47,798 nt of DNA from Bacteroidales bacterium (lineage in GTDB: Bacteria; Bacteroidota; Bacteroidia; Bacteroidales; UBA932): assembly GCA_017471045.1 (NCBI GenBank), contig JAFUWZ010000002.1:1-47798 (forward strand), read 5' to 3'. This document shows positions 18,122-40,459 of the stretch, piece after piece (within the stretch, counting starts at the first letter, position 1; every line of letters starts with the position of its first letter). Made by a program: the position numbers and the translations under genes. The notes beneath the pieces were generated by a model that worked only from the letters and a program-made list of their open reading frames with translations, searched no databases and was not told where the DNA came from.

Positions 18122-21100
18122 ATGCTCTCCAAACATCTTACCGGGAAACGGCTCGCGCTCACTCTGGCTGCCGGGCTGCTTTTCTTCGCCTTCAACGGGG
18201 CACAAGCCCAGAACAAGACGATCCGGGGCGTGGTGGTTGATGCCTCCAACGAGCCCCTGATCGGCGCTTCCGTTCAGGAGAAAGGAACCAGCAATGGTGT
18301 CATCACCGACTTGGACGGAAACTATACCCTCACCGTCGATCCGGAATCGATGCTGGTCATCTCCTACATCGGATGCGAGACGCTTGAGATCAAAGCTTCC
18401 GACGTCCCGGCGACCATCCGCCTCAAGAACGACCTGGAATCCCTCCAGGAGACTGTCGTCATCGGCTACGGCACCCAGAAAAAGGTCAACTTGACCGGGG
18501 CCGTCTCCGCAGCCTCCGGAGACGACATGAAAAAACGCCCCGTCGCCAACACGGCGACGATGCTGCAGGGCCTGATGCCGGGCCTTCGGATCACCTCCGA
18601 CCGCGGCCAGCCCGGTGACGAGAACGTCCAGATCCGCGTCCGCGGCCAAGGGACCTATTCCAATGCCGGCTCCAACCCGCTGGTCCTGATCAATGGCGTC
18701 GAGGGTGATATCGCCACCCTGGACCCCAACATCATCGAATCTGTCTCCGTCTTGAAGGATGCGGCTTCCGCTTCCATTTACGGATCCCGCGCAGCCAACG
18801 GCGTCATCCTCGTCACGACCAAGGACGGGTCCGAGAACCCCGACAAGTTCAATATAACCTACAACGGCAACTTCGCCAGCCACACGCCGACGACGATGCT
18901 GGACCTGATCTGGGACTCCCCGACCTATATGAAGTATTACAACATCGCACGCATCAACTCCGGTGCAGCAGCGTCGGCCTACACGGACGAACAGATCGCG
19001 GCCTATACCAACGCGACCGACAAGACCGCCTATCCCAGCTTCAACTGGCTGGACTGGTTCATCAACCCAGCCTTCGTCCAGACCCACAACGTCAACATTT
19101 CCGGCTCCAGCGGCAAGACTTCCTACAACGCCTCCGCGACTGCGCTGGACCAGCCCGGCACGGAGCAGGGACAGGCCTACAAACGCTACAACGTGGCGCT
19201 TGATCTGACCTCCCGGCTCAACGACTGGATGCGCTTCGGCATGTACTTCAGCGCCAGTCGCAGCAACCGCCAGCAAACCCGCCAGGGCGACACCGACGCC
19301 CTGCTCTCCGCCATCTCCCAAGCGCCGACCTACATGCCCTGGTTCTTCGTGGACGGGACCGAATATTACACATACAAGGCCTATCCCAACGAGGGCGGCA
19401 ACAAAAACATGTACGCCATCGTCAAGGAGCAGACTTTCAAGACCTCCATCAACACCGACGTCAACGCCCAGGGCTGGCTGGAGATCAGTCCGGTCAAGGG
19501 CCTGACCTGGTACAACAAGGGTGCCGTCCGCTACCGCCAGAAGCAGGAGAAGGACTGGCGCTACGCCTCCGGCTCGTCCGTCTATTACTACCACAGCCAC
19601 GATTGGGCCCAGCAACTCAACACCGGTGGCGACGGTCTGGATGACGAGATGGACTACAGCACCTATCTCAACTTCTACTCCACCCTCAAGTACGACCTTG
19701 CTTCCGCCAGCAAGAACCATGAGGCGTCCCTGATGGCCGGTTACAGCGTAGAGTCCTACCGCTACGACTACCTGCACGCCTACCGGCAGGACTTCGACTT
19801 CCCGCTGCATGAGATCGACGCCGGCACGACCAAGACCGTCGACACGGGCGGCAATGCCGAAGAATGGGGCCTCGTCTCCGCCTTCTTCCGCGCCAACTGC
19901 TCCTACAAGCAGCGCTACCTGCTGGAGGCCAACGTCCGCTACGACGGCTCCTCCCGCATCGCCAAGGCCAACCGCTGGGGCTGGTTCCCCTCCGTCTCCG
20001 CCGGCTGGCGCGTCACCGAAGAGGACTTCATCAAGGATTCCGCGGCCAGCAGCTGGCTGAACAACTTCAAGATCCGCGCTTCCTACGGCCTGCTGGGCAA
20101 CCAGAGCATCGACCTATACTCCTACTACTCCACCGTCTCCACGGGACTGGACTACTCCTTCGACAATGACCAGCTGACCAGCGGCATCGCCCAAACTTCC
20201 ATCAGCAACGAAAACCTGAAGTGGGAGACGACCGCCCTGGCGGACGCCGGCTTCGACCTGACCCTCTTCCGCGGCCTGAACGTCACCTTCGACTGGTACC
20301 ACAAGCGCACCTACGGCATCCTCCGCCAGGCGCAGGGCAACGCGCTCCTGGCCCTGGACGCCCCTTACATCAACGGCGGCGAGATGGTCAACCGGGGCGT
20401 GGAACTCTCCGTCAGCTATGCCGACCGGGTGAAGAACGGCTTCTTCGAAGGGCTGGAGTACAACGCCGGCTTCTACGTGGAGCACACGAAGAACATCCTG
20501 ACGAAATACGGCAGCGACGAGATCTCCAGCGGCCTCATCTACCGGGAAGGCGAGCCCTACGGCTCCTTCTACATGCTGGAGGCCATCGGCATCTTTGCCG
20601 ACCAGGCGGAGATCGACGCTTCCCCGAAGCAATACAACGACAAGACGGAGCCCGGCGACATCAAGTACCTGGACTGGGACAACGACAACGACATCGACGA
20701 CGACGACCGTCATATTGTCGGAAACCGCTTCCCCCAGCTCGAGTACAGCATCAACTTGAGCGCCAACTGGAAAGGCTTCGACCTCTCCCTCATGGGCCAG
20801 GGTGTGCAGGGCGTCAACCACTACGCGGACCACTGGGGCGTCCGGGCCTTCCGCCAGGGCACGCCGATCAGCCAGGAATACATCAACGGCATGTGGACCG
20901 AGGAGAACCCCTACAACGCCAAGTATCCCAAACTCTACTACGACAACATGGGCGGCACCAAGAACAACCGCACCAGCACCTACTATCTGTTTGACGGATC
21001 CTACTTCCGCCTGAAGAACCTGACCTTCGGCTACACCCTGCCGGCCAACCTCACCCGGCGTTTCTGGGTCGATCGCCTGCGCTTCTACTTCTCGGGCGAC

Positions 21101-21232
21101 AACCTCGTCACCTTCACCAAGTTCCCGCAGGGCGGAGATCCCGAGCGCAACTACACGTCCAAGAACAACACGCGCCTGGTGTACTATCCGCAGAACAAGA
21201 TCTATTCCCTGGGTGTCAACCTGACTTTTTAA
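18122..21232 (+). CDS. SusC/RagA-family TonB-dependent outer-membrane transporter
   Basis: A 1036-aa outer-membrane barrel. Signal peptide (1-29, ending AQAQ), a carboxypeptidase-regulatory-like domain (about 33-110, GVVVDASNEPLIGASVQEKG), the SusC linker ETVVIGYGTQKKVNLTGAVS, plug domain (about 125-240, including VLKDAASASIYGSRAANGVILVTTK) and a beta-barrel ending in aromatic LGVNLTF. SusC proteins import oligosaccharides with TonB energy. It is immediately upstream of its SusD partner (21-base gap). No good TAnnTTTG box is seen upstream, consistent with a promoter that depends on the hybrid regulator next door. Confidence 0.95.
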   Translation: MLSKHLTGKRLALTLAAGLLFFAFNGAQAQNKTIRGVVVDASNEPLIGASVQEKGTSNGVITDLDGNYTLTVDPESMLVISYIGCETLEIKASDVPATIRLKNDLESLQETVVIGYGTQKKVNLTGAVSAASGDDMKKRPVANTATMLQGLMPGLRITSDRGQPGDENVQIRVRGQGTYSNAGSNPLVLINGVEGDIATLDPNIIESVSVLKDAASASIYGSRAANGVILVTTKDGSENPDKFNITYNGNFASHTPTTMLDLIWDSPTYMKYYNIARINSGAAASAYTDEQIAAYTNATDKTAYPSFNWLDWFINPAFVQTHNVNISGSSGKTSYNASATALDQPGTEQGQAYKRYNVALDLTSRLNDWMRFGMYFSASRSNRQQTRQGDTDALLSAISQAPTYMPWFFVDGTEYYTYKAYPNEGGNKNMYAIVKEQTFKTSINTDVNAQGWLEISPVKGLTWYNKGAVRYRQKQEKDWRYASGSSVYYYHSHDWAQQLNTGGDGLDDEMDYSTYLNFYSTLKYDLASASKNHEASLMAGYSVESYRYDYLHAYRQDFDFPLHEIDAGTTKTVDTGGNAEEWGLVSAFFRANCSYKQRYLLEANVRYDGSSRIAKANRWGWFPSVSAGWRVTEEDFIKDSAASSWLNNFKIRASYGLLGNQSIDLYSYYSTVSTGLDYSFDNDQLTSGIAQTSISNENLKWETTALADAGFDLTLFRGLNVTFDWYHKRTYGILRQAQGNALLALDAPYINGGEMVNRGVELSVSYADRVKNGFFEGLEYNAGFYVEHTKNILTKYGSDEISSGLIYREGEPYGSFYMLEAIGIFADQAEIDASPKQYNDKTEPGDIKYLDWDNDNDIDDDDRHIVGNRFPQLEYSINLSANWKGFDLSLMGQGVQGVNHYADHWGVRAFRQGTPISQEYINGMWTEENPYNAKYPKLYYDNMGGTKNNRTSTYYLFDGSYFRLKNLTFGYTLPANLTRRFWVDRLRFYFSGDNLVTFTKFPQGGDPERNYTSKNNTRLVYYPQNKIYSLGVNLTF

Positions 21233-21253: not shown

Positions 21254-22747
21254 ATGAAAAAGATATTTGCTTTCATACTCGCGTCTGTTGGTTTTGCCGC
21301 CTTTACCGCCTGTACCGGCGTCCTGGATACGGATCCCCTCAACGAGCCTTCCGAGAGTGTCTTCTGGCAGAACAGGGGACATTTCGAATCCGCACTGGCC
21401 GCATGCTACAACGGCATGCAGGAACAGATGCTGACCTGGGTGATGCCGACGTTCGACGCACTGACCGACAACTGCTACGGCAATCCCGGTTCCACCTACG
21501 TGTACAACGCCGACCAGATCCAGACCGATAATTTCGATGCGTCCACGACGGGCCTGATCGCCAACGTGTACAGTCAATGCTATTCCGCCATCTCACGCAT
21601 CAACAGTTTTCTGGACCGGCTCAAGGTCTATACGGGCGAAGACCTGAGCTCCGTCCGGGACCAGTTCGAAGGAGAAGCCCTCTTCCTGCGCTCCTACTGC
21701 TACTACATGCTCTGGCTCTTCTATGGCGATGTGCCCTATGTCAGCGAGAGCGTCACCATCGACACCCAGGACCAGCCCAAGGTGGACAAGGAGACCCTCT
21801 ACAGCAACATCCTTTCCGACCTGGATGATGCGATCCGGAAGATGGGCGACCAGACCTACATGGCGACGGGGCACGCGACCCGGGGCGCCGCCCGCGGACT
21901 GAAAGCGCGGATGCTGATGTACCATGCCTACGGCACCGACGGCGCCGTGGCCAACCGCGCCGAGGTCCAGGAGGCCTACGATCTCATCTCCCAGATCAAG
22001 GGTTATTCTCTCGACCCCGAATATGCCAAGATCTTCCGTCCCGGCGATCAGCAGTCCAGCAAGGAGATTATTTTCTCGATCAAGTTCCTCAACCCGGACA
22101 ACTACCACCAGATGGACAGCCAGTACGGCAACTACGGCATGATCTCCCCCGTCCAGGACCTGATCGACTGCTATGAGAGCGAGGATATCCGCCTCCTGAA
22201 GAGCATCGCGGTCAGCGAGGATCCTTCGGTCCTCTACTACCAGTGGGAAGGCGGAGAGGTCGTCCCGATCAGCAGCAGCACCATCGGCAAGCGCATGGTC
22301 AAGTGGCTTGCGCCTTTCTACAAGGCCGGTGACCGCTGGACCCAGACGACCCGCAGCGACCAGGACATCATCTACTTGCGATGGGGCGAACTGATGCTGC
22401 TCCAGGCTGAGGCCGCCAATGAATTGGGCAAGACTGCGGAAGCGGAAGGACTCGTCAACCAGATCCGGAAAAGAGCCGGCGTCGGCGTCTGCCCGGGCGG
22501 CATGGGCCAGGCCGAGATGCGCTCCTACATACGCGACGAGCGCCGGCGTGAGACTCCCTTCGAGATGATCCGCATCTACGATATGCGCCGTTGGCACATC
22601 ATGGACAAGCTCAACGGACTGGTGCTGGATCCCTATCTCAAGGACGTCAAGACCGCCTGGACGGCATCCCGCGAGTATTGGTCGATCCCGCAGGGACAGA
22701 TTGACCTGTCTGACAACATCCTGATCCAGAATCCCAATTACAAATAG
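21254..22747 (+). CDS. SusD/RagB-family glycan-binding lipoprotein
   Basis: A 497-aa surface lipoprotein (signal ending FTAC, Cys20, then TGVLDTDPLNEPSE). It has the SusD fold: an N-terminal half with tetratricopeptide-like helices and a C-terminal signature LRWGELMLLQAEAANELG followed by IRDERRRETPFEMIRIYDMRRW. It binds glycan and closes the SusC barrel as a lid. It is in an operon with susC and followed by a terminator. Confidence 0.95.
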   Translation: MKKIFAFILASVGFAAFTACTGVLDTDPLNEPSESVFWQNRGHFESALAACYNGMQEQMLTWVMPTFDALTDNCYGNPGSTYVYNADQIQTDNFDASTTGLIANVYSQCYSAISRINSFLDRLKVYTGEDLSSVRDQFEGEALFLRSYCYYMLWLFYGDVPYVSESVTIDTQDQPKVDKETLYSNILSDLDDAIRKMGDQTYMATGHATRGAARGLKARMLMYHAYGTDGAVANRAEVQEAYDLISQIKGYSLDPEYAKIFRPGDQQSSKEIIFSIKFLNPDNYHQMDSQYGNYGMISPVQDLIDCYESEDIRLLKSIAVSEDPSVLYYQWEGGEVVPISSSTIGKRMVKWLAPFYKAGDRWTQTTRSDQDIIYLRWGELMLLQAEAANELGKTAEAEGLVNQIRKRAGVGVCPGGMGQAEMRSYIRDERRRETPFEMIRIYDMRRWHIMDKLNGLVLDPYLKDVKTAWTASREYWSIPQGQIDLSDNILIQNPNYK

Positions 22748-22827: not shown

Positions 22828-25800
22828 ATGAAAAAACTGCTCCTGATCCTGCCATGCCTGCTCGTCGGCATCTTTGCAGCAGCCTTCTCCCGGGAAGAAC
22901 CGTACTTTTCCAACCTGGGCCTGGACGAAGGTTTGTCCCAGATGAGCGTCCTGGCCATCTGCCAGGACTCTGACGGCTTCATATGGTTCGGGACACGGAA
23001 CGGCCTCAACCGCTACGACGGGCGCAAAATGGTGGTATTCAAGCACGAAGTGGATCGGCCCGGGAGCCTGGTGGACAGCCATATCCTGTCCTTGGCCGAA
23101 GACAGAGACCACCGCCTTTGGATCGGCAGTATGCACGGCCTCAACCGGCTGGACCTCACGACCGGGGAGATGAAGATCTGGCCCCGGAGAAAATTTCCCA
23201 TTTTCGAGAACGGAGCGACCGCCCTGTGCTGCGACCCTCAGGGCCGGATCTGGGTCGGGACCGCCCAGGGCCTGTTCGAATACCGGGAGGACGAAGACAA
23301 CTTCCGGCCGGAAACCCTGCAAGGGATCCTGGAAGGAAGCACGGTAGCGGCCATCCGGCAGACCCGCAGCCACGGGCTTGTCGTGTGTACCCTCGACCGG
23401 GGATTCGTCGAAGTGCAGGAGGACCTGAGCGGAGCGGTCCGCCACGACGTCGGCCAGGCGGACCACCCGCTCCCCTCGCGAATGGTCAACAGCGTCTATG
23501 AAGACTCGCACGGGACACTCTGGGTCGCCTTGCGCGAAGGAGGCCTCCTCCACCTCTTCCCGGACGGGACCCGGAGCGAATACTCCGTCCGGAACGGATG
23601 CCTGAAGACCAACACGGTCCGCTGCATGACCGAGACGGACGGGATCCTGTACGTCGGGACGGACAGCGGACTCTATGCCTGCGATCTCGAAACCGGAGCC
23701 ATCGAGGCGACTTCCGGCTCCCAGCATCACCGGGGCGAACTGAGCCACTTCTCCATCACCTCCTGCCTGACGGACCAGAGCGGGAGCCTCTGGGTGGGGA
23801 CCTACTCCGGCGGCGTGGATTTCTACAGCAAATACGCCCGGCGCTTCTCCTTCTACGACCCGACCCAGCAGCTGGAGGAGTTCCAGGGCATCATCGGCCC
23901 GATCGCGGACAGCGGGACCCGGGACGGCGGGGAGACGGTCTATGTCGCAACGGAGGGCAGCGGCCTGCTGCGCTACGACCTGGGGGGCGGAGGTACGGAA
24001 ACTTTCCTCTATGCGGCTGACGCTGCCCCCAGCCACAACATCATCAAGTCCATCCTGCGGGAAGGCGACACGGTCTGGTGCGGAACGACCCAGGGGGCGA
24101 TCTGGCAGTTCGACATCCCCACGCGGCGCTTCTCCCTCTACTGCATGCTGCCCAAGAGCCACTCCGTGTCGATCTACGCCTTGCTGCGGGGCCGGAACGG
24201 GGAACTGTGGGCCGCTACCTCCAAGCCCGGCTACGGCCTGGTGCGGATCGACAAGGACCGCCAGGTCCAGGACCGTTTCGCCATCGACGGTGCCGAGGAG
24301 GAGCAGACCTTCCCGAGCCTGCGCTGCCTGCTTGCCGTAGACCGGGACATCCTGCTGATCGGATCCCGCCATGACGGGCTGTTCCGCTTCGACACCCGGA
24401 CCCGGCAGCTGACCCGCTTCCACGAGAACGGAGACGGGCCCCTCCGGCTGCCCTCCAACTATGTCACGGCCCTGGTCCGGGACGGTAAAGGGCACATCTG
24501 GGTCGGCACCTACGGCGGTGGCATCAGTCTCTTCGATACGCAGGAAGGCATCCTGAAAAACATCACGGCGCGCGAAGGACTCGCGGACGCGGACGTCTGC
24601 ACAATCGTGACGGACCAGGACGACAACCTATGGATTGATGCCGGCAACTACATCTCCCGCTACGACCCGGTCGATGAACGGATCCAGAACTTCCAGGTCG
24701 GCGTCATCGGCACCCAGGAATTTACCCCGCACTGCGGGACCCTGCTCCCGGACGGGAGGATCTGCTTCAGCGCACGCAACGGCTTCATCCTTTTCGATCC
24801 GCAGTCGCTGCAGCTCAACCCCTACATCCCGCCCGTACGCCTGACCGGGCTCGCCATCGCCAACAAGACGGTCACGCCGGGCAAGGGCAGCCCGCTGAGC
24901 CGCACGATCACCCACAGCCGGCAGATCACCCTGCCCTGGAACCGCAACACCCTCACCCTCTCCTACTCGGCCCTCAACTACGTCTATCCCAGCCTGAACC
25001 AATACGCCTACCGACTGCTCGGCCAGGACCGGGACTGGAACTACGTCGGCGACCGCCAGGAGGCGTACTTCACGGACCTGCGGCCCGGAAAATATGTGTT
25101 TGAAGTCAAGGCCTCCAACAACGACGGCCTCTGGAACGAGACACCGATGCAGCTGGGCATCACTATCCGGCCTCCGTTCTGGGCAGCCTGGTATGCCTGG
25201 ATCCTCTACTCCCTGGCCGCCCTGGGCGTCTTCCTGCTGATCAACCACTACACCGACAAGCGGCGCATCCTGGAGCAGGCCCTGCTCTTCAAGCAGAAAG
25301 AGCAGCAGCAGCAGGAGGCGTTCCACCAGGCCCGGATGCGGATGTACACCAGCTTCTCGCACGAGCTCCGCACGCCTCTCACGCTGATCATTTCCCCGCT
25401 GGAGGAGCTGCTGGACACGGGCGGTTTCCCCCGGGACGTCAAGAACAAGTTGGAACTGATCTACGACAACTCCCAGCGCCTGCTCCTGCTGGTCAACCAG
25501 CTGATGGACTTGCGCAAGAGCCAGGCCGGCAAGATGAAACTGAAGGTCCGGGAAGACGACATCAACCTCTTCGTCAGCGAAATCTACCGGACCTTCCGGC
25601 ACATCGCCGCCGACAAGCAGATCGAGCTGGACTTCCCGCAGGAGGATGGCCACATACAGGCCTGGTACGACCGCTTCCTCTTCGAGAAAGTCGTCTTCAA
25701 CCTCTTGTCCAACGCCATAAAACACGCGCCCGTCCACGGGCACGTCACCCTCGGGCTGGACCTGACCGGCAAGGATGCGCTCAAGGCTGGCCACCAGGCT

Positions 25801-26943
25801 GCGCCGGAATCGGTCCCGGACACGGCCCGGCTCCTGCACCTGACAGTGGCAGACGACGGACCCGGCATCGTCCCGGAAGAGATGGAGAAGATCTTCGAGC
25901 CTTTCTACCAAGGAGAGGACGACCCGGCCAACCGCCAGTCCGGCACCGGGATCGGGCTGAGCCTGAGCCAATCCGTCGTCACCTTGCACCACGGGACCAT
26001 CTGGGCCGAGAACCGGCCGCAGGGCGGCGCTCTCTTCCACGTCGTCATGCCCGTCGACCGCGACACCTTCGGCCCGGAGGACTTCGACCAGGACCAGGAG
26101 AAGAGCCTCGCGCTCGAAGTGATCCCTTCCGAGATCGCGCCGGAGACCCTGCCGGACGCCGACAAGGCCACCGTCCTTCTCATCGAGGACACGGAGCCCG
26201 TCCGCATCTATATCCGCGAGCGGCTGGAGAAGTTCTTCCGCGTGTTCGAGACTGACAACGGGGACACCGCCCTCCGACTGGTTGCCGAGAAGATGCCGGA
26301 CATCGTCGTCAGCGACATCATGATCCCGGGGACGAGCGGACTGGAGGTCTGCGCCCGCATCAAGGAAGACATGCTGACCGGGCACATCCCGGTCATCCTG
26401 ATGACGGCCAAGTCCATGGCGGTCCACATCATCGAAGGCTACGCCAGCGGGGCCGACGACTACATTGTCAAACCCTTCAATATCAACGTGCTGATATCCA
26501 GGATCAAGAACCTGCTCGCCTCGCGGGAACAGCTCAGGACCCTCTACGGCAAGAAGCGGACTCAGGACCTGCTGGGCGTGGACCTGTCGGCCGGAGAAGA
26601 CCGCTTCACGCAGAAACTGTTCACACTCATTGAAGCCAACATCGCCAACCCCGAGCTCAACATCGACATGATCTGCCGGGAGATCGGCCTGAGCCGGACC
26701 AATCTCTACCGGAAGCTCAAGCCCATCACCGATCTCTCTCCGGTCGAGCTCATCCGCAACTACCGGCTGGAGATGGCCACGGACCTGCTGCTACATTCCA
26801 ACTACAACATCTCGGAGATAGCGACCTATACGGGCTTCAACAGCCACGCCTATTTCACCAGCTGCTTCCGCGCCGCCTACGGCTGCACCCCTTCCGAATA
26901 TGCCGCCCGGCAGCATCCGGAGGCTAACGATAATGGCCGATGA
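22828..26943 (+). CDS. hybrid two-component system regulator (HTCS)
   Basis: A 1371-aa inner-membrane protein with both sensor and regulator parts. After a signal/anchor (1-20) come two periplasmic beta-propellers (about 25-715, many WFGT/WIGS/WVGT repeats), a Y_Y_Y domain (720-785) and a membrane segment (786-808). The histidine kinase core follows, with His845 in FSHELRTPLTL and an ATPase domain (about 945-1070). The receiver domain has Asp1163 in VVSDIMIPG and a KPF lysine, and the C-terminus is AraC-type HTH (about 1265-1365). Such proteins sense oligosaccharides in the periplasm and activate the adjacent susC/D operon. A TATCTTGC about 30 bases upstream is a weak promoter box. Its tail overlaps the convergent PL6 gene by 20 bases. 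Confidence 0.95.
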   Translation: MKKLLLILPCLLVGIFAAAFSREEPYFSNLGLDEGLSQMSVLAICQDSDGFIWFGTRNGLNRYDGRKMVVFKHEVDRPGSLVDSHILSLAEDRDHRLWIGSMHGLNRLDLTTGEMKIWPRRKFPIFENGATALCCDPQGRIWVGTAQGLFEYREDEDNFRPETLQGILEGSTVAAIRQTRSHGLVVCTLDRGFVEVQEDLSGAVRHDVGQADHPLPSRMVNSVYEDSHGTLWVALREGGLLHLFPDGTRSEYSVRNGCLKTNTVRCMTETDGILYVGTDSGLYACDLETGAIEATSGSQHHRGELSHFSITSCLTDQSGSLWVGTYSGGVDFYSKYARRFSFYDPTQQLEEFQGIIGPIADSGTRDGGETVYVATEGSGLLRYDLGGGGTETFLYAADAAPSHNIIKSILREGDTVWCGTTQGAIWQFDIPTRRFSLYCMLPKSHSVSIYALLRGRNGELWAATSKPGYGLVRIDKDRQVQDRFAIDGAEEEQTFPSLRCLLAVDRDILLIGSRHDGLFRFDTRTRQLTRFHENGDGPLRLPSNYVTALVRDGKGHIWVGTYGGGISLFDTQEGILKNITAREGLADADVCTIVTDQDDNLWIDAGNYISRYDPVDERIQNFQVGVIGTQEFTPHCGTLLPDGRICFSARNGFILFDPQSLQLNPYIPPVRLTGLAIANKTVTPGKGSPLSRTITHSRQITLPWNRNTLTLSYSALNYVYPSLNQYAYRLLGQDRDWNYVGDRQEAYFTDLRPGKYVFEVKASNNDGLWNETPMQLGITIRPPFWAAWYAWILYSLAALGVFLLINHYTDKRRILEQALLFKQKEQQQQEAFHQARMRMYTSFSHELRTPLTLIISPLEELLDTGGFPRDVKNKLELIYDNSQRLLLLVNQLMDLRKSQAGKMKLKVREDDINLFVSEIYRTFRHIAADKQIELDFPQEDGHIQAWYDRFLFEKVVFNLLSNAIKHAPVHGHVTLGLDLTGKDALKAGHQAAPESVPDTARLLHLTVADDGPGIVPEEMEKIFEPFYQGEDDPANRQSGTGIGLSLSQSVVTLHHGTIWAENRPQGGALFHVVMPVDRDTFGPEDFDQDQEKSLALEVIPSEIAPETLPDADKATVLLIEDTEPVRIYIRERLEKFFRVFETDNGDTALRLVAEKMPDIVVSDIMIPGTSGLEVCARIKEDMLTGHIPVILMTAKSMAVHIIEGYASGADDYIVKPFNINVLISRIKNLLASREQLRTLYGKKRTQDLLGVDLSAGEDRFTQKLFTLIEANIANPELNIDMICREIGLSRTNLYRKLKPITDLSPVELIRNYRLEMATDLLLHSNYNISEIATYTGFNSHAYFTSCFRAAYGCTPSEYAARQHPEANDNGR

Positions 26944-28333
26944 TCTGGTCCCGGTCCGTCCGGCAAGGCAGATACCAGGAGGGACCCTGCCCGACGGACA
27001 TCAGATCGAGAACCCGCGCACGTTCCAGGGCCGCCCAGTCCGGCTCCACTTCCAGCGGAGTGAAGCCCCCGTCAAACGGGGGACGGGCGCCGTCGGCAAG
27101 CGAATAGCGGTTGTCCTCAAAGTTGAAATTGCCGGGGATCAGGTCGGCGTGCTCCACCCGGAAACAGTCCGCCGGTCCGGTAAAGACGTTGTGCCACATC
27201 CGGACATGGCGCGGCTCCTTGTCACCGAAACCGGACAGCAGATTGATCTCCCGGCAACCGAAGAACCAGTTGTAAGCGATGTCCGCATTCTCCACCCGGT
27301 GGTACGACGTAAGCGGCTCCAATTCAGTGTCGGTCTCGGCCGTCGGGCGCTCGTACACACCCATCCGTACCAGCAGGCCGTAACCGCCGGTCCGGGCGAT
27401 GAAGTTGTCGTACACGGTCTGGTTCTGGTTGATGATCCGGATCCCGAGCGTCCCATCGATGTCATTGCCGATGAAGGTGTTGGATTCCAGTATATTGTCG
27501 TGTCCGTGCCGGCAGACCAGCCCGCCCCGGGACTCGTAAAAGAGGTTGCGGCGGACGGTATTGTGGCAAGACTTGACGGAGATGACCTCGATCTCCCCGT
27601 CGCAATGCAGGAAAACATTGTCCTCCACGAGAGTGTGGGACGGCAGCTGGGAGGACCAGCTGTTGCCGATCCGGATCGTCTCGGCCCCGTTGCCCTGGTA
27701 ATCCTTGTGATAACCGAAGACGTTGTGATCGATCCTGTGGTTGTTGAGATAGTCCTTTTCGCCCAGCCAGATCTGCACGGTCAGGCCTCCCACCCGCTTG
27801 TTGGCGAAGTAGCAGTGGTCGATCCGGTTGTCGGTCCCATGCAGTCCCAGCCAGAACTCGCCCGAGATGGAGGATGACATGCGCCCGATCGCGACCTCGC
27901 TTTTCTGGGGATTGTTGCAGTCGTCAATGGCGCACTCCGTCATCCGGCAATGCGAGGCGAAGACGCCCTCTTCCTTTTGGAACTCGACCAGGCACAGCTC
28001 CGCCGACCAGGCCTTGTAGAAAAGCAGGCCCTCCAGGCGGAGGTATTCGCCCGACAGGCGGATGGTCAGGGGACCCGAGAAGACGGCCGCGCCCGGATGC
28101 TCGGCGCAGAAGGTGACCGGCGCGTCCAGGCTGCCCCGGGCCGAAAAATCAAATGCGCCCAGGTCACGGTATACGCCGTCCCGCAAGATGATACGGTCGC
28201 CGGGACGGAGTTCCCCGCCGCCCAGCAGGGCCTTCAAGGAAGCCGCCTCGGAGGGCGAAAAAAAGTAAGAAGCCGCCTTGGCACCCAGGCAGGAGAGGAT
28301 AAGCACGACAGCCAGCAAAAGCGTCTTTTTCAT
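26924..28333 (-). CDS. polysaccharide lyase family 6 (chondroitinase B / alginate lyase type)
   Basis: A 469-aa secreted right-handed beta-helix. Signal peptide 1-20 (MKKTLLLAVVLILSCLGAKA), then PL6 hallmark rungs: GNGAETIRIGNSWSS, CDGEIEVISVKSCHNTV with the probable catalytic base Lys254, and GGLVCRHGHDN with Arg275. PL6 lyases cleave uronic-acid polymers (alginate, dermatan) by beta-elimination with Ca2+; substrate choice within the family is not readable here. It is encoded opposite to the PUL genes on both sides and overlaps the regulator by 20 bases at the 3' ends. A weak TAAATTTA box lies 26 bases before its start. Confidence 0.9.
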   Translation of the reverse strand: MKKTLLLAVVLILSCLGAKAASYFFSPSEAASLKALLGGGELRPGDRIILRDGVYRDLGAFDFSARGSLDAPVTFCAEHPGAAVFSGPLTIRLSGEYLRLEGLLFYKAWSAELCLVEFQKEEGVFASHCRMTECAIDDCNNPQKSEVAIGRMSSSISGEFWLGLHGTDNRIDHCYFANKRVGGLTVQIWLGEKDYLNNHRIDHNVFGYHKDYQGNGAETIRIGNSWSSQLPSHTLVEDNVFLHCDGEIEVISVKSCHNTVRRNLFYESRGGLVCRHGHDNILESNTFIGNDIDGTLGIRIINQNQTVYDNFIARTGGYGLLVRMGVYERPTAETDTELEPLTSYHRVENADIAYNWFFGCREINLLSGFGDKEPRHVRMWHNVFTGPADCFRVEHADLIPGNFNFEDNRYSLADGARPPFDGGFTPLEVEPDWAALERARVLDLMSVGQGPSWYLPCRTDRDQIIGHYR

Positions 28334-28464
28334 ACGAAGGAGAAAATGGTTCTGGCCGTAAATTTAGCAAGACTTCACGGATGCTCCTATCAGATTTTTC
28401 CTTTTCCTTGTAAAAAGCGGTCCGAAGAAATAAGAGTGAAAGTCTTTGATACAAAAATGATATG

Positions 28465-28472
28465 TATCTTTG
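28465..28472 (+). promoter_or_regulatory. -7 box for the GH2-PL38/GH29/GH97 operon
   Basis: TATCTTTG is a full TAnnTTTG match 24 bases before the GH2-PL38 start codon. A CTTTG lies about 16 bases further upstream, so spacing is slightly short of ideal. This supports the start codon at 28496. Confidence 0.65.
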
Positions 28473-28495
28473 AAAAAGAAAATTATCTTGCATCT

Positions 28496-31400
28496 ATGAT
28501 TCAAAGACACGCTCCCACCCTCTTGGCCGGAATCGTCCTGGCCCTCCTCGTCCTCCCGGTCCACAGCCTGGACGCCCGCGTGGCCGGCGGACAAAAAACG
28601 CGCATCAACGACGGCTGGCAGTTTGTCCGGGGAGACCTCGGCAGCATTTGGGAAGCCGTGCGTCCCGTCAAGGCCGGCAATCCGGAGGACGTCCCCCTCT
28701 GGACAGAAGTCACGCTCCCCCATTGCTTCAATGCCGAGGACGGCGTCGATCCGGATGTCAACTACTACGAGGGTCCCGGCTGGTACCGGACCTGCCTCCA
28801 GATCGGTAACCCCTTCCCCGGAGGACGCACCCTGCTGGAATTTGAAGGGGCCGGACAGAAAACGGAAGTCTATGTCTATACGACCCGGGTCGGGTCCCAC
28901 ATCGGAGGCTATGACAGCTGGAACGTGGACATCACGGATGCCGTGGAGGCGTTCCTGAAGAGTCCGGACGCCGGACGCTTCAAGGGAAAGGTGCCCGTCA
29001 GCATCCGCTGCGACAACAGCCGCGACGTCGAGATGATCCCGTCGGACCTGGCGGATTTCAACATCTACGGCGGGCTCTACCGCTACCTCAACCTGGTTTA
29101 TGTCCCGGCGGTGTCGGTGGAGCGCCTGCGCATCACCCCGTCCCTCGACGGGAAGCGGAAAAGCGGGGCCGTCCGGATCGAGGCTCTCCTCAACGACCCG
29201 CTCCGGAAAGGCACGGCCGATGCGCAAGTGACGGTCCGCGACGCCGAGGGCAAGGTCATCGTCCGGCAGGCGCTCCCGGGCCTGGCCACAGACGGGCCGT
29301 CGGTGCTGGCGGAGTTTACGGTCAAGAAGCCACATCTTTGGGACGTGGACGACACCTATCTCTATTCCTGCGAAGTCAAGGTCAGCGCCGATGGGCAGAC
29401 CGATACGGCGACGGAGCGCTTCGGCTTCCGCTCGTTTGAATTTGCCGAGAAGGGACCCTTCTACCTCAACGGACGCCGCCTGCTGCTTCAGGGTACGCAC
29501 CGGCACGAGGACCACGCCGGTGTCGGCGCGGCCATGACCGAAGAGCAGATTGCGACCGAGATGCGCCTGATGAAGGAGATGGGCGTCAACTTCATCCGCC
29601 TCGGCCATTACCAGCAGTCGGAGATCGTCCTCCGCCAGTGCGACTCGCTGGGCATCCTGGTCTGGGAAGAGATCCCCTGGTGCCGCGGCGGCCTGGGCGG
29701 CGAGCGCTACCGCCAGCAGGCCCGTCAGATGCTGACCCACATGGTGCAGCAGCATTTCAACCACCCCGCCGTCATCATCTGGGGCCTGGGCAACGAAAAC
29801 GACTGGCCCAATGACTTCCCCGAATTTGACAAGCAGCAGATCCGCGCCTTCATGGCCGAACTGAACACGCTCAGCCACGAGCTGGACCCGGAGCGCAAGA
29901 CCGCCATCCGCCGCTGCGCTTTCTGCAGCGACATCGTAGACGTCTATTCGCCGTCCATCTGGGCCGGCTGGTACCGCGGCGCCTACGTGGATTATAAGGA
30001 AGAATCCGAGCGCGAGATGCAGAAAGTCAAGCACTTCCTCCACGTCGAATGGGGCGGCGACAGCCACGCCGGACGCCACTCCGAAGATATCTTCCGCAAC
30101 ATCCGGGACGTCGTGCGCGACGGGGCCGACGAGCGGGCGGGCGACGCGTCGCTCTACGGCGGCGCCAAGCGGGTCTCCCGCGACGGCGACTGGTCCGAGA
30201 CCTATATCGTCCACCTGATCGACTGGCACCTGAAGGAGCAGGAGACGATGCCCTGGCTGACCGGTACGGCCTACTGGCCCTTCAAGGATTTCTCCACCCC
30301 GGTCCGTCCGGACAATCCCGTGCCCTACGTCAACCAGAAAGGCGTCCTGCAGCGCGACTTTACGCCCAAGGAGTCCTACTACGTCTTCCAGTCCTACTGG
30401 ACAGACAAGCCGATGGTCCATATCTACGGCCATACCTGGCCCGTCCGCTGGGGCGATCCCGGCGAGAAGAAGGAGATCCTGGTGTATTCCAACTGCAGCG
30501 AAGTCGAGCTCTTCGTCAACGGCGTCAGCCAGGGCCGCAAGACTCGCAACAGCCAGGACTATCCGGCGGCGGGCTTCCACTGGGATGTCGCCCTGCAGGC
30601 CGGCCCCGTCACGGTTCAGGCCGTCGCGACCCGCAAAGGCGGCGTCCGCCTGACGGACGAGATCGCTTTCCGCTATGTGACGGAGCCCTGGGGCCCTGCC
30701 GCACGGATGGCAGCCCGGGCCGTTGCGGCCGAAGACGGCCGTGTGCGGATTGACGCGGAGGTGCTGGACGCCCAGGGCCGGCGCTGCCTGGACGACAAGC
30801 GCTTCATCCGCTTCCAGCTCGCCGGCGACGGGACCTTGATCCGGAACCAGGGCACGCCGACGGGTTCTTCGAAGGTGCAGGCCTGCAACGGACTAGCCTC
30901 CATCTACCTGGATCCCGGAGCCGGACGGGCCGCCGTGGCGGTGCTCTCCGAAGGCCTCCAGACGCAGATCGTCTCCCTGGACCCGGTCCGGACGTCCCTG
31001 GAGGAGGCCGTCCTCACGCAGGCGGAGCAGGACCTGAAAGCACTGCCGGTCACGGTCACGGCCTACCCCGCCGTGCGCAGCGAAGGGACAATCCATGATT
31101 TCTTCTCCGAAGGAGACTACTGGTGGCCGGATCCGAAAAACCCGGACGGGCCCTACATCCGCCGGGACGGGGAGACCAATCCCGACAACTTCGTCGCGCA
31201 CCGCCACGCCATGATCCGCTTCAGCCAGATCGTCGGCAACCTGGCTTCCGCCTTTCTGCTGACCGGCGAGCAGCGCTATGCGGATGCCGTGCAGGCCCAC
31301 GTCCGGGCCTGGTTCATCGATCCGGACACCCGGATGAACCCCAACCTCCTCTATGCCCAGGCCATCCACGGCGTCACGCCGGGCCGGGGCATCGGCATCA

Positions 31401-32077
31401 TCGACACCATCCACCTGATCGAGGTCGCCCAGTCCCTGATCCGCCTGCAGGAAGCGGGCGCGCTGCCTGCTGAGATCCTGGACGGAGCGCGGCAGTGGTT
31501 TGCAGACTACCTCCAGTGGCTGAAGACGCACCCCAACAGCACCCAGGAAATGAACGCCACCAACAACCACGGCACCTGCTGGGCCTTCCAGGCGGCCGCC
31601 TTTGCCAAATTCGTCGGCGACCGGACCCTGATGGACTTCTGCGCCGACCGCTTCAAGTCGGTCTTCCTGGTCCGGCAGATGGCCGACGACGGCAGTTTCC
31701 CGCGCGAGCTGCAGCGGACCAAGCCCTACGGCTATTCGATCTTCAACCTCGACGCGATGGCGGGCCTCTGCCAGATCCTCTCCACCCCGGAGGACAACCT
31801 CTGGGACTACACGACGCCTGAAGGGCACAACATGCGCAAGGCCCTCGATTTCCTGCTCCCCTACATCCAGGACAAGTCCACCTGGCCCTACGGGGAAGAC
31901 GTGATGTACTGGGAGGAGTGGCCCGTCGCCCAGCCCGCATTCCTCTTCGGCTGGGCGCATTTCGGCGACGCCGCTTACTACCGGGCCTGGCAGGGCCTGG
32001 ACCATTTCCCGACCAACGAGGAAGTGATCCGCAACCTGCCGCTACGCAATCCTATCCTATGGATCGACCAAAACTAA
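28496..32077 (+). CDS. GH2-PL38 fusion: glycoside hydrolase plus polysaccharide lyase
   Basis: A 1193-aa secreted two-catalyst enzyme. Signal peptide 1-26, then GH2 sugar-binding, Ig-like and TIM-barrel domains (about 35-700) with acid/base Glu434 in GLGNENDW and candidate nucleophile Glu518 in LHVEWGG, then GH2 C-terminal Ig-like domains to about 830. Without a stop, an alginate-lyase-superfamily / PL38 domain follows (about 840-1193), with DFFSEGDYWWPDPKNPDGPY near 870 and the conserved NNHGTCW. PL38 members cleave beta-1,4-glucuronan-like polymers. The start at 28496 follows a good promoter box; the open frame further upstream is antisense to PL6. A 6-base gap to GH29 makes it the first gene of an operon. 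GH2 and PL38 activities on one chain suggest side-chain removal coupled to backbone cleavage (inference). Confidence 0.9.
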   Translation: MIQRHAPTLLAGIVLALLVLPVHSLDARVAGGQKTRINDGWQFVRGDLGSIWEAVRPVKAGNPEDVPLWTEVTLPHCFNAEDGVDPDVNYYEGPGWYRTCLQIGNPFPGGRTLLEFEGAGQKTEVYVYTTRVGSHIGGYDSWNVDITDAVEAFLKSPDAGRFKGKVPVSIRCDNSRDVEMIPSDLADFNIYGGLYRYLNLVYVPAVSVERLRITPSLDGKRKSGAVRIEALLNDPLRKGTADAQVTVRDAEGKVIVRQALPGLATDGPSVLAEFTVKKPHLWDVDDTYLYSCEVKVSADGQTDTATERFGFRSFEFAEKGPFYLNGRRLLLQGTHRHEDHAGVGAAMTEEQIATEMRLMKEMGVNFIRLGHYQQSEIVLRQCDSLGILVWEEIPWCRGGLGGERYRQQARQMLTHMVQQHFNHPAVIIWGLGNENDWPNDFPEFDKQQIRAFMAELNTLSHELDPERKTAIRRCAFCSDIVDVYSPSIWAGWYRGAYVDYKEESEREMQKVKHFLHVEWGGDSHAGRHSEDIFRNIRDVVRDGADERAGDASLYGGAKRVSRDGDWSETYIVHLIDWHLKEQETMPWLTGTAYWPFKDFSTPVRPDNPVPYVNQKGVLQRDFTPKESYYVFQSYWTDKPMVHIYGHTWPVRWGDPGEKKEILVYSNCSEVELFVNGVSQGRKTRNSQDYPAAGFHWDVALQAGPVTVQAVATRKGGVRLTDEIAFRYVTEPWGPAARMAARAVAAEDGRVRIDAEVLDAQGRRCLDDKRFIRFQLAGDGTLIRNQGTPTGSSKVQACNGLASIYLDPGAGRAAVAVLSEGLQTQIVSLDPVRTSLEEAVLTQAEQDLKALPVTVTAYPAVRSEGTIHDFFSEGDYWWPDPKNPDGPYIRRDGETNPDNFVAHRHAMIRFSQIVGNLASAFLLTGEQRYADAVQAHVRAWFIDPDTRMNPNLLYAQAIHGVTPGRGIGIIDTIHLIEVAQSLIRLQEAGALPAEILDGARQWFADYLQWLKTHPNSTQEMNATNNHGTCWAFQAAAFAKFVGDRTLMDFCADRFKSVFLVRQMADDGSFPRELQRTKPYGYSIFNLDAMAGLCQILSTPEDNLWDYTTPEGHNMRKALDFLLPYIQDKSTWPYGEDVMYWEEWPVAQPAFLFGWAHFGDAAYYRAWQGLDHFPTNEEVIRNLPLRNPILWIDQN

Positions 32078-32083
32078 TATACC

Positions 32084-33511
32084 ATGCGAAAAACCCTTTA
32101 TTGCTTGCTCTCCCTCTGCCTGGCGCTGAACCTGTCCGCCCAGGCTCCCCTGACCCAGGAAGAAAAAATGGAATGGTGGAACGAAGCCAAGTTCGGCCTC
32201 TTCGTCCACTGGGGTCCCTACAGCCTCTACGGAGGCGTGTACAACGGCTTCCCTCAACGGCGGGGCGGCGCCGAATGGATCATGAACCGCTGCAAGATCC
32301 CGGTGATGGAGTACCGGGCCAAGGCCAGCACCTTCAACCCCGTCGAGTTTGATGCCGACCAGCTCGCCACCCTGGCCGTGGACGCCGGCATGAAGTACCT
32401 CGTCCTGACGACCAAGCATCACGACGGCTTCGCCATGTTCCAGAGCGACGCGAGCCGATTCAACATCGTGGACTACACGCCCTTCGGACGCGATGTCGTG
32501 GATGAGGTGGTCCGGGCCTGCCGCCGCCATGGGCTCAAGATCGGCTTCTACTATTCGCAATCGCAGGACTGGTGCAACGCCGGCGGCGCAACGGCCCGCA
32601 AGGAAATGAAGGAAGGCTGGGCCAATCCCGACTCGACCGAGATCGACCGCTTCACCCGGGAGCACGGCGGCGCCTGGGACTACAAGCAGCGCGAGAGGAG
32701 CTTCGACGAGTACTTCCACGCCGTCGCCCTGCCGCAGATGAAGGAATTGCTGTCCCGCTATCCGGACCTCGCCGTCATCTTCTTCGACACCCCGATGTCC
32801 ATCACCGAGGCCCAGGCCCGGGAGATGCAGGACCTGCTCAAGGACTTCCCGCAGATCATCGTCAATGACCGGCTGAAACGGCCCGATTTCCCGGGCGACT
32901 ACAAGACGCCGGAGGGACGGATCCCCGAACCGGAAGATGTCAAAGGCGTGTACTGGGAGACCTGCATGAACGTCGGCAGCTCCTGGGGCTACAAGAGCTG
33001 GGAGAATAAGTGGAAGAGCTGCGACGAAGTGATCCGCACCCTGGCCACGATCGCCGCCCGCGGCGGCAACCTGCTCCTCAACGTCGGTCCCGACGCCCTG
33101 GGACGCGTCCCCGGACAGGCCCAGGATTGCCTGCGGGAAGTCGGCCGGTGGCTCAGCGTCAACGGGGAGGCCATCTACGGCACCCAGCGCAGCGGACTGC
33201 ATCCGGACTGGGGCGAAGTGATCCGCAAGGACGTCCCCGGCGGCAGCGTCTTCTACCTGTGCATCTATGATTTCCCGGAGGACGGGACGCTCACCCTGGA
33301 CGGCAACTTCTCCTTCCGCAAGGCAAGCGTACTCGCCGACGGCACGCCCGTTCGCTTCTCCACGCGCGGCAGTCGCACCACCGTCCAGCTTCCGGCCGGC
33401 CTCGCTACCGAGAAGTATCCCGTCATCAAGCTGGAACTGCGACGTCCCCTGCCGCCCGTCAAACTTCTTTCCAACACGGAACTCTATTTCAAGATCGCCG
33501 ACACCGACTAA
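32084..33511 (+). CDS. GH29 family alpha-L-fucosidase
   Basis: A 475-aa secreted enzyme with a signal peptide (1-20, LCLALNLSAQA). The GH29 barrel starts with WWNEAKFGLFVHWGPYSLYGG and continues with YLVLTTKHHDGFAMF, GFYYSQSQDW and the nucleophile Asp235 in AVIFFDTP, and the conserved RGGNLLLNVGPDALG comes near residue 325. A beta-sandwich tail follows. It hydrolyses alpha-L-fucosides; linkage preference is not predictable. It starts 6 bases after GH2-PL38 and 10 bases before the GH97 gene, so all three are one operon. Confidence 0.93.
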   Translation: MRKTLYCLLSLCLALNLSAQAPLTQEEKMEWWNEAKFGLFVHWGPYSLYGGVYNGFPQRRGGAEWIMNRCKIPVMEYRAKASTFNPVEFDADQLATLAVDAGMKYLVLTTKHHDGFAMFQSDASRFNIVDYTPFGRDVVDEVVRACRRHGLKIGFYYSQSQDWCNAGGATARKEMKEGWANPDSTEIDRFTREHGGAWDYKQRERSFDEYFHAVALPQMKELLSRYPDLAVIFFDTPMSITEAQAREMQDLLKDFPQIIVNDRLKRPDFPGDYKTPEGRIPEPEDVKGVYWETCMNVGSSWGYKSWENKWKSCDEVIRTLATIAARGGNLLLNVGPDALGRVPGQAQDCLREVGRWLSVNGEAIYGTQRSGLHPDWGEVIRKDVPGGSVFYLCIYDFPEDGTLTLDGNFSFRKASVLADGTPVRFSTRGSRTTVQLPAGLATEKYPVIKLELRRPLPPVKLLSNTELYFKIADTD

Positions 33512-36894: not shown

Positions 36895-39471
36895 TCAGCG
36901 GCCGGAGGCCTCGGAGGCCCGCTTGACCGCAAACTCCTGCGCCTCCCCGGCGGAGAGCGCCAGCCTGCCCGCAACGGGCTTCCTGAAGCCGGACAGGGTC
37001 AATGACTTGAGGTCCAGGTTGCCTTCAATGACTTCCAGTTTGACGGAGTCACTCCGCACTTCACAGGTTCCGAAAGCGCTGCCGTTGCTCCAGAAATACT
37101 TCCCGGGGACGGAGGTGAACTGCATCGTCCGCTCCACCCCGGAATACCGGAACCCGCTCAGGGCGGGCACCGCCGACCAGCTCGCCATCGACCGGGCATA
37201 ATGCTTGCCGCATTCCGGCTCGTCAAAGGGGTTCCGCTTCGCCCCGTCGAAACGCGCACGGATCGATCCGATGCACTTGAGGGCGTCGTCGACCCGGCCT
37301 TCATAGATCATCCCGACTGCCGCGCAATACTCGAATCCCGTCATCGACTCCGGAAAATACGGGAAAGGGACCTCCAGCCGCCCCTTCGGCCAGGAAGCCA
37401 TCAGCAGGCACGACTCGTGCCCCATCACGTAAGAGCGCATGTTGTTGAACGTATCGCTGACATCACTGACATAATTGTATTTCATGATGCTTTCCAGCGT
37501 CTTGCGGATATGTTCCCTGTCTCCCAGATATCCCAAGCCGCAGAGATGGGCCATGTACTGGCCGACCAGTTGGTCCACCAGGCAGCCCTTCCCCAACTGG
37601 AAAGGAGGGACCTTGTCCGAACCTTCCGGCAGGAATTCGAAGGTCTGCGGGTCCGTGATCCAGTGCTCGTAATATTCCCCGTTGAAAAGGTGGGCATCCA
37701 TCCACGTGCTTCCGGAGGCGAAAAGGACCCGGCATTTCTGGGCGAATGCCTTGTCTTTCATTGCTATCGCCATCTCCTCAGCCGCCCGCAAAGCGCCCAT
37801 GTACCAGAATCCCATCTGGGGATTGGGCCCGAAATAACTCACGTCCATCGTATTATGCTGCGAGCCTTCCATGACGCCGTCCTGGTCTCCGTCCCAGCCT
37901 TTTTCCTTCCACGCATAAGAAAGGGCGGCTTTGCAGGCCGGCCAATACCGCTCCAGGAAGGCTCTGTCTCCTGAAAGCTGCCATTCCCGGTATAGCTTCA
38001 TGATGCAGCCCATCTGGCCGTCGGCGGCGGTCTGCCTGGGGTCGGGCGCGGTTCCCAGGGGAAGATTCGCACGGAAATCCATTGCGCCGTCCGGATTCAT
38101 CGAATAATGGAATTCCACGTCTCGCATGGTTCTCGCCAAGTCGCCGAACAGGAACGCGGTCGCCGCTTCATAGTTCCAGACATGGGTGCAGGAGCCCGCG
38201 CAGGAGCCGAAATGGTCTGTGACGCCCTCCCAACCGAGCATGTGTCCGTCTCGCACGCGGAACACCGTCTGGGAGCGGAGGACGGCGAGGTTATATAGGG
38301 CGGCTTCCTTCACGACGTCGGGCAGGGAAGACCCCAGAAACGCCCGGACGAACGAGAGCGTCCTCTCCTCCAGCGCACCGATCTGCGGGATAAACGCTAT
38401 AGCCGCATCCCACGCATCCGGATAGCGGATGCTGTAGTAATTGCCGACCACTTCGCTCGACCAGGCAAAGCGGTTGGGAAAAAACCATGTCAGGAAAAAG
38501 TTGAAGGAGCGGGTCTGCCCGGGCTGCAGGGTCGCTTTGACCGACAGCGCTCCCATCGGGTCCTCATCCTTTCCCACGGAGTGGCGAGTGCTGGCCACGG
38601 GATTGGAGATCAAGCCGTCATCGCTGAAATCGTCCCAAAAGTTGAGCAGAGCGTTCGCCCAGTTGTTGTCCGTGGAATAAGTGCGGAAACTGACCTGACC
38701 GCCGCTGTCTGTCGAAAGGCAGAAATGCCCCCAGGCCTTGTCTTGAGGGTCGACACCCTCGGAATAGAAACGGATCCCGCGGATCTGGCCGGACGCCCGG
38801 TATTCGTTCTTGTTGCCTTTGGCCCCGGTCGGGATCCTGTCCCCTTTCCAATTGGAGACATACTGCTGTCCATCCTTGCCGACGAAGTTGCGGATCGCCC
38901 CGCACACGGCCACCTCGACCTCATGGCCGGAAGTGTTGGTCACCTCGTAAGACAGCACCGCAAGGGGAAGTCCGCTTGCCTCGGAGTCCCCGGGAATCAA
39001 GGGATTGAAACCCTTGATCCGAACCTTGACGGGCATCCCGGGGTCGCTCAGACAGACTTGTCCGAACGGATAAGCGGCTTCAAACGAAGCCTCCTCGAAC
39101 CGGGGCAGACCGTGGTGATTGACCGGCCGTCCTTCAAAATGGAGGTATTCCTGCGGATAAAGCGGACCGGCAAGGAGTTTCGTCGCGCGCACTCCGGCCG
39201 ATTCCGTGAAGATGGCAAAAAATGGGGCATCATTCCCCGTGGCCACGGTACTGTTCCCCTTGCCCGGGACATTCATGATCTCCCAGTCGCGGATCTCGCC
39301 CCGGCCGCCCAGCGAGACAGTGCCGGTTCCGATCCCGCCCAGCGGGAGGGCGACCTGCTGAAGGTGAGCGCTGTCATAACGGGTCAGGACGGGCCACTCG
39401 GCCGGCACCCATTCCTGGGCAAAGAGGCCCGCCGGAATGAGCAGGACCGCCAGTACAAGGATTCTTTTCAT
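36895..39471 (-). CDS. GH116-like beta-glucosidase/glucosylceramidase family enzyme
   Basis: An 858-aa secreted protein with a signal peptide (1-19, VLLIPAGLFA). It has the N-terminal beta-sandwich of the glucosylceramidase-2 family (VALPLGGIGTGTVSLGGRGEIRDW) and a C-terminal alpha/alpha barrel (DUF608) with GSCTHVWNYEAATAFLFGDL, EGSQHNTMD (Glu535) and LVDQLVGQY. Asp633 in that last motif aligns with the known acid/base position; the nucleophile assignment is less certain from spacing. GH116 enzymes release glucose, xylose or GlcNAc from beta-glycosides. ATG at 39471 is preferred over a GTG 21 bases upstream. It is monocistronic with its own promoter. Confidence 0.85.
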   Translation of the reverse strand: MKRILVLAVLLIPAGLFAQEWVPAEWPVLTRYDSAHLQQVALPLGGIGTGTVSLGGRGEIRDWEIMNVPGKGNSTVATGNDAPFFAIFTESAGVRATKLLAGPLYPQEYLHFEGRPVNHHGLPRFEEASFEAAYPFGQVCLSDPGMPVKVRIKGFNPLIPGDSEASGLPLAVLSYEVTNTSGHEVEVAVCGAIRNFVGKDGQQYVSNWKGDRIPTGAKGNKNEYRASGQIRGIRFYSEGVDPQDKAWGHFCLSTDSGGQVSFRTYSTDNNWANALLNFWDDFSDDGLISNPVASTRHSVGKDEDPMGALSVKATLQPGQTRSFNFFLTWFFPNRFAWSSEVVGNYYSIRYPDAWDAAIAFIPQIGALEERTLSFVRAFLGSSLPDVVKEAALYNLAVLRSQTVFRVRDGHMLGWEGVTDHFGSCAGSCTHVWNYEAATAFLFGDLARTMRDVEFHYSMNPDGAMDFRANLPLGTAPDPRQTAADGQMGCIMKLYREWQLSGDRAFLERYWPACKAALSYAWKEKGWDGDQDGVMEGSQHNTMDVSYFGPNPQMGFWYMGALRAAEEMAIAMKDKAFAQKCRVLFASGSTWMDAHLFNGEYYEHWITDPQTFEFLPEGSDKVPPFQLGKGCLVDQLVGQYMAHLCGLGYLGDREHIRKTLESIMKYNYVSDVSDTFNNMRSYVMGHESCLLMASWPKGRLEVPFPYFPESMTGFEYCAAVGMIYEGRVDDALKCIGSIRARFDGAKRNPFDEPECGKHYARSMASWSAVPALSGFRYSGVERTMQFTSVPGKYFWSNGSAFGTCEVRSDSVKLEVIEGNLDLKSLTLSGFRKPVAGRLALSAGEAQEFAVKRASEASGR

Positions 39472-39501
39472 ACGGATGGAAGGGTTATTCACAGCTTCTC
39501 A

Positions 39502-39936: not shown

Positions 39937-40150
39937 TGGAACGGATCTCGTCAAACGCTGCCTTTCCCTTGTTGACAACATCCTCTTTCGCCGGAGCCTC
40001 AATGATGAAGGGGATCCTGCGATCTCTGACGACAGCGCGGGCAAAGATGTTGAATGCCGTATTGGTACTCATGCCGAATTCATCGCAAAGTGCATCGAAC
40101 TGGACCTTGAGATCGTTATCCATACGGATGGTCATTGCGGTTTGTGCCAT
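39929..40150 (-). CDS. RelB/DinJ-type antitoxin
   Basis: A 73-aa protein. An N-terminal ribbon-helix-helix (MAQTAMTIRMDNDLKVQFDALCDEFGMSTNTAFNIFARAVV, residues 1-42) would bind its own operator, and a C-terminal tail would wrap the toxin. It is intact with a textbook promoter, but its PIN toxin is broken, so it is an orphan antitoxin. Confidence 0.85.
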   Translation of the reverse strand: MAQTAMTIRMDNDLKVQFDALCDEFGMSTNTAFNIFARAVVRDRRIPFIIEAPAKEDVVNKGKAAFDEIRSNQ

Positions 40151-40166
40151 AATAACTTCTTTTTTG

Positions 40167-40452: not shown

Positions 40453-40459
40453 CGTTCGT

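Follow-up and report, generated by a model that had tools for sequence, protein, structure and literature searches.

A predicted GH2 β-glucuronidase–PL38-type lyase fusion in a Bacteroidales bacterium and the gene partnership behind it

One gene of a Bacteroidales bacterium encodes a chain in which a GH2 β-glucuronidase (GUS) is joined to a PL38-type lyase, the latter assigned to its family by sequence and fold likeness to PL38 structures (3nfv, 8bdq) and not with the CAZy library. Judged from sequence, the arrangement is real and recurs in other genomes, its catalysis is plausible, and complete hydrolase and lyase catalytic modules on a single chain mark it as a candidate bifunctional GH+PL design. 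It joins two enzymes whose genes are usually neighbours and which probably act on glucuronate of one glycan.

Sequence features of the fusion gene

The fusion gene occupies positions 28496-32077 (+) of the window, i.e. the whole stretch of 47,798 nucleotides analysed here, and is translated as a single open frame of 1193 residues from an ATG to one terminal stop, in agreement with an initial annotation of this DNA that had noted no stop between the modules. From N- to C-terminus the chain comprises a signal-like start, the GUS and the lyase, with a linker that is nearly absent:

28496..28573, + strand: signal-peptide-like N-terminus (residues 1-26; translation read by eye; modelled helix 7-24, low pLDDT)
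28574..30982, + strand: GH2 β-glucuronidase module (residues ~26/27-828/829; Glu434, Glu518, Asn613/Lys615)
30983..32074, + strand: PL38-type lyase module (residues ~830-1193; Tyr875, Asp891, Gln955, Asn1024, His1025, Tyr1080)

The mechanical ORF begins upstream, at 27950; position 28496 was taken as the start because an opposite-strand PL6 gene fills 26924-28333 and the ATG at 28496 gives a signal-like N-terminus. The junction falls at about residue 829/830, i.e. window position ~30,980, close to the 31,000 first proposed. It is clean and in frame, the GH2 stop and the lyase signal peptide both being gone, with no residual signal peptide or frameshift. The predicted model had a pTM of 0.69, the relative orientation of the domains being uncertain. 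A promoter/terminator scan of 28300-32300 gave no signal above chance, and NCBIfam returned no model above cut-off for the fusion and no match for the seven other proteins given.

Catalytic modules

In the GH2 part, Pfam recognised the GH2 N, middle and TIM-barrel domains, DUF4982 and a sub-threshold Glyco_hydro2_C5, the N (sandwich) domain scoring just under its cut-off (27.9 bits vs 28); by Pfam and model/structure comparison combined, the sandwich, Ig-like and TIM-barrel domains are all present. This part has ~64% identity with a P. merdae GUS, and its alignment covers residues 22-826 of the 830 in 6d7j. The P. merdae enzyme (6dxu/6d7j; GH2) is a stand-alone protein of 830 residues, whereas the fusion carries an extra lyase; Bacteroides uniformis β-glucuronidase 3 (6d1p), with 57-59% identity and the fold in common, is likewise unfused, unlike the window gene. 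Glu434 and Glu518 (GNEN and HVEWGG motifs), which from motif knowledge we take to be the acid/base and the nucleophile, respectively, were found in 41/41 aligned GH2 rows, as was the NxK pair Asn613/Lys615. The P. merdae GUS of the published pNPG assay, a very slow enzyme there, is presumed on the grounds of its species to be identical with 6dxu/6d7j. Its kcat on pNPG was given as 0.088 s-1, and larger, polysaccharide substrates were favoured by the authors for non-L1 GUS (passages covered of PMC6351562). In hexuronidases the NxK motif is described as holding the uronate carboxylate (PMC12243196, in part), and the GH2 module is predicted to be of the β-glucuronidase type specifically.

The lyase part spans residues 828-1193 in the structure comparison with 3nnb and matches PF05426 (Alginate_lyase) over residues 854-1130 (E 1.1e-89). 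BACOVA_01668 (3nfv, E 5.4e-64), which carries the PDB name alginate lyase, matched more closely than BoPL38 (8bdq, E 5.6e-43). BACOVA_01668 (3nfv/3nnb) and BoPL38 share 24-30% structural-alignment identity with the fusion lyase, which differs from them in sitting C-terminal to a GUS. His1025 and Tyr1080, present in 44/44 aligned lyase rows, align with His243 and Tyr298 of BoPL38, reported as its catalytic pair (PMC13169297, in part), and Tyr91, Asp108, Gln173 and Asn242 of BoPL38 are likewise kept. BoPL38 His297 is replaced by Gly in the fusion lyase (Gly in 43/44 rows, Ala in 1/44), so that the alginate specificity of BoPL38 is not simply transferable; activity on glucuronan, alginate or GAG is reported for PL38 enzymes in the literature passages covered. 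Both catalytic modules had initially been described as apparently complete, and this description stands: the domains are full-length and, since the catalytic residues checked are all kept, functional loss is indicated in neither module and both appear competent.

A second PL38 of the same genome (L002 1270-2670) is 53% identical; in this protein and in that of a same-genus relative (L097 1267-2715) the lyase matches extend over ~400 residues vs 360, which suggests an insert.

Fused and separate relatives

Relatives were collected with the whole fusion protein as query in one genome per species, and of 592 confirmed stretches the 80 with the best matches were retained; either gene order was accepted in the locus counts, and some fetched stretches were short. 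Among these best 80 of 592, one fused frame was present in six loci (four Parapedobacter, two Sphingobacterium), separate genes at most 150 nt apart in 33, and genes on the same strand but farther apart in 32 (3 within 600 nt, 29 beyond), while PL38 was not seen in the fetched stretch of nine. At 71 of the 80 loci, therefore, PL38 shared either the frame or the strand of the GH2, a proportion that is inflated because the query contained both parts and only the best matches were retained. The design had been called uncommon at the outset; this holds for the fusion, rare at six of the best 80 loci plus the window, but not for the gene pairing.

The six Sphingobacteriaceae fusions (L013, L019, L025, L026, L017 and L018, from Parapedobacter and two Sphingobacterium species) have the domain order of the window gene, 57-62% identity to its protein and open frames of 1194-1197 residues; their junction is longer than that of the window, and GH88 is present in four of the six fetched loci. 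Separate PL38 genes open with a signal-like segment that the window lyase lacks. In a crude lipobox scan, 21 of 65 separate PL38 heads matched (8 of 12 labelled Bacteroidales); the scan evidently overlooked one or more heads (L029) and probably scored others falsely.

Among 120 relatives searched, with frames checked, no second GUS-PL38 fusion was found. Within the genus, G041 has a GH88-GUS fusion with a diverged PL38 close by, and in G022 GUS and PL38 are matched on two separate contigs; for G064, G012 and G071, which have PL38, the scored candidates included no GH2 match at E ≤ 1e-60. A GUS relic ahead of the G064 PL38 (L095) was looked for and rejected, as no similarity was found. Other fusions of the same enzyme set were GH88-GUS (L093 262-3840) and GUS-GH88 (L092 418-4044), and PL38 was also seen fused as GH31-PL38 (L071 13055-16318) and esterase-PL38 (L114 1474-3432).

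Association of GUS, PL38 and GH88

A less biased estimate of the pairing was obtained from 395 genomes sampled evenly across the class and searched with the GH2 part (E ≤ 1e-150). Ten genomes besides the window's own matched, and a lyase-only search of these placed a PL38-like match no more than 15 kb away on the same contig in seven; in three of these seven the GH2 and PL38 matches were at most 150 nt apart, and the PL38 match of G486 was 35% identical. Three of the ten gave no PL38 match at E ≤ 1e-40, and their GH2 was 39-42% identical, although G321, with a GH2 39% identical, does have PL38. GH2 and PL distances were correlated (r 0.78 over 44 pairs, against ≤0.28 in 1000 permutations), which in part reflects shared ancestry.

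Neighbouring families, named by the Pfam of one representative each, included, among the best 80 of 592, SusC (48 loci), a GH88-like family (45 loci), a member of which (L027) matches solved GH88/unsaturated glucuronyl hydrolases, GH95 (22), GH29 (21) and GH31 (14). Some Bacteroides loci also carry PL8 (4 loci in the same set) and additional genes of GH88 and GH95-like type. The flanks of three fused Sphingobacteriaceae loci, out of six, were traced farther, with flanking genes annotated in part: P. koreensis and S. arenae have a regulator, SusC/D and GH88 as recognised partners, and P. pyrenivorans has GH20 as well. As the accessory enzymes differ between lineages (GH95/GH29/GH31, PL8, GH18, GH20), the trio is read as a glucuronate-handling core set in clusters for different glycans. 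In another phylum, a Catenovulum adriaticum plasmid (L130 17413-30133) carries adjacent GH2 and PL38 genes (~40% identity) along with uxaC, kduI, GH88 and a TonB receptor; with genes for both saturated and unsaturated glucuronate, this locus is the simplest support for one pathway.

Origins of the fusions

A quick concatenated GH2+PL tree was built from 44 of 65 paired loci, 21 near-copies having been dropped by hand; L023, for its long branch, and L111, which repeats L089, had been removed before the 65 were counted. The window gene fell with unfused pairs of Bacteroides type at a support of 100, away from the Sphingobacteriaceae fusions. Forcing the seven fusions together cost 158 log-likelihood units, and a common origin of all fusions was rejected by the AU test (p = 0.0008). 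A quick lyase-only tree of 75 rows also needed two changes, although its starred branches by themselves do not require that many. On the concatenated tree and the AU test, the same neighbouring genes, an old partnership, were most likely fused independently at least twice. Fusion of neighbouring genes is an ordinary evolutionary route and does not of itself show new chemistry.

Gene cluster and proposed mechanism

In the window, the fusion gene is accompanied by the following genes:

15156..17891, + strand: second GH2 enzyme of the cluster (Pfam)
18122..21232, + strand: SusC-like TonB-dependent receptor (Pfam)
21254..22747, + strand: SusD-like protein (Pfam)
22828..26943, + strand: hybrid two-component sensor/regulator (Pfam)
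26924..28333, - strand: PL6-type lyase, divergent neighbour (Pfam PF14592; phmmer 6qps (PL6), E 1e-158)
32084..33511, + strand: GH29 α-L-fucosidase-like gene (Pfam PF01120), 6 nt past the fusion stop codon
33267..35447, + strand: GH97-like gene (Pfam; ORF start mechanical, overlaps the GH29 frame)
36895..39492, - strand: GH116-like gene (Pfam)

The cluster of PL6, GH29, GH97 and GH116 suggests a heteropolysaccharide, so that plain glucuronan is not the obvious target here. GH88 was not found in the window, the four GH88 matches of the genome (three above cut-off) lying on other contigs, an argument against the cassette being complete in this stretch.

What the analysis shows is the open frame with its domains and residues, the partnership of the genes and their fusion on two independent occasions; the following scheme for activity, export and substrate, and for a possible benefit of tethering, is inferred. 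The chain would be exported, and its PL38 lyase would cut inside the glycan at 4-linked glucuronate by β-elimination (Tyr1080/His1025), leaving unsaturated glucuronate at the new ends. The GH2 β-glucuronidase, acting through Glu434/Glu518 and gripping the carboxylate by Asn613/Lys615, would hydrolyse saturated glucuronate off non-reducing ends, and the unsaturated residue would be taken off by GH88, a near partner of the pair in over half of the kept relatives but located elsewhere in this genome. By dropping the GUS stop and the lyase export signal, the fusion would place both modules in one compartment at a 1:1 ratio. The favoured substrate class is glucuronan or a glucuronate-rich heteroglycan. 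Weighing against this scheme are the varying partner enzymes, the three sampled genomes of the class that gave no PL38 match, and the same-genus genomes in which GUS and PL38 were matched apart (G022) or PL38 came with no scored GH2 match (G064, G012, G071).

More tentatively, and with odds somewhat against it, GH2 glucuronidases of the P. merdae type, familiar chiefly from studies of drug glucuronides and of poor activity on small glucuronides, could be chain-end partners of PL38 on glucuronate polysaccharides. The fusion would then be a one-chain machine converting a glucuronate-rich glycan to glucuronate and unsaturated ends, its sites near enough to act on one chain and the arrangement selected at least twice.

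The initial annotation had proposed that the GH2 module strips a side group that sits on or blocks the uronate backbone cut by the lyase. In such a scheme the GH2 would remove a glucuronate side group and the two modules would act on different residues. The several exo-type enzymes of the window cluster (GH29, GH97, GH116, GH2) do indicate that the target may be branched, and the poor activity of P. merdae GUS on small glucuronides is compatible with this scheme. However, the partnership of the GH2 gene with PL38 and GH88, joined in Catenovulum by uxaC and kduI, fits action of both modules on glucuronate of one glycan, at chain ends and internally. The Catenovulum locus feeds saturated and unsaturated glucuronate pathways, and the P. 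koreensis and S. arenae fused loci showed no debranching enzymes among their (partially) annotated genes, evidence that leaves room for side chains. Removal of a side group is thus a possible reading that was not supported and is not the simplest, and it is considered unlikely.

Slightly less likely again is that the lyase is an alginate (or poly-mannuronate) lyase in an alginate-type locus with a PL6 partner, the GUS being incidental. The neighbouring PL6 is close to 6qps, which we presume to be BcelPL6. BcelPL6 is described as an M-block PL6 (PMC11381880, in part), and BoPL38, an alginate lyase, accompanies PL6 and PL17 in B. ovatus according to the literature passages covered. Against this, the window lyase is nearer to BACOVA_01668 than to BoPL38, whose His297 it lacks, the recurrent partners are β-glucuronidase and GH88, and PL17 was not seen in the subset of window ORFs scanned, where PL6 and SusC/D are present. 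Finally, an assembly or sequencing artefact joining two genes is very unlikely even though the pair is usually two genes, the genome is a 2.6-Mb draft of 73 contigs and the relatives searched gave no second fusion, since such an error would have to delete the stop and ~30 signal-peptide residues in frame with both domains undamaged and a clean linker, and since six further genomes at a greater distance (Sphingobacteriaceae) have the two modules fused in this order too. The joint action of both modules on glucuronate of one glycan is accordingly preferred to all three alternatives.

Comparison with other multidomain enzymes

CelAly and related enzymes (GH5+PL31, PL14+GH9, PL7+GH16 and PL7+GH16+PL6; PMC13235733) resemble the window protein in carrying a hydrolase and a uronate lyase per chain, but are described as acting on two polymers (glucan and alginate), whereas both window modules appear uronate-directed. 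The passages covered of that survey list four GH+PL types, with PL38 outside its scope, and the fusion adds a GH+PL architecture of two origins to those listed. RiPL38 is, like the window protein, a multidomain PL38, with reported HA/CS activity, but has a 3keto-disac_hyd module as N-terminal partner in place of GH2 (PMC13027841, in part). No paper on a GH2-PL38 protein was found in the open-licence literature searched.

The fusion marks GH2 GUS and PL38 as functional partners and so points to a testable native role for gut β-glucuronidases, for which crystal structures are known and native substrates are not established in the literature passages covered. A possible native role for the P. merdae-type glucuronidases is the most useful consequence of this analysis.

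Other features of the window

In the left part of the window, a glucuronyl-esterase-like protein (PF22244; 3731-5029, +) is a further uronate-linked enzyme. Positions 8814-13625 (+) encode, in a row, two GFO/IDH/MocA oxidoreductases, a 3-keto-disaccharide hydrolase domain protein and a xylose-isomerase-like TIM barrel, an arrangement that to us resembles a 3-keto-glycoside pathway. Weak resolvase/recombinase matches were seen at 385-1740 (+), at the left end of the contig. GC content was 0.42-0.46 at 40001-44000 vs 0.50-0.66 in the other 2-kb bins, and a protein with four Big_2 repeats is encoded at 42385-44160.
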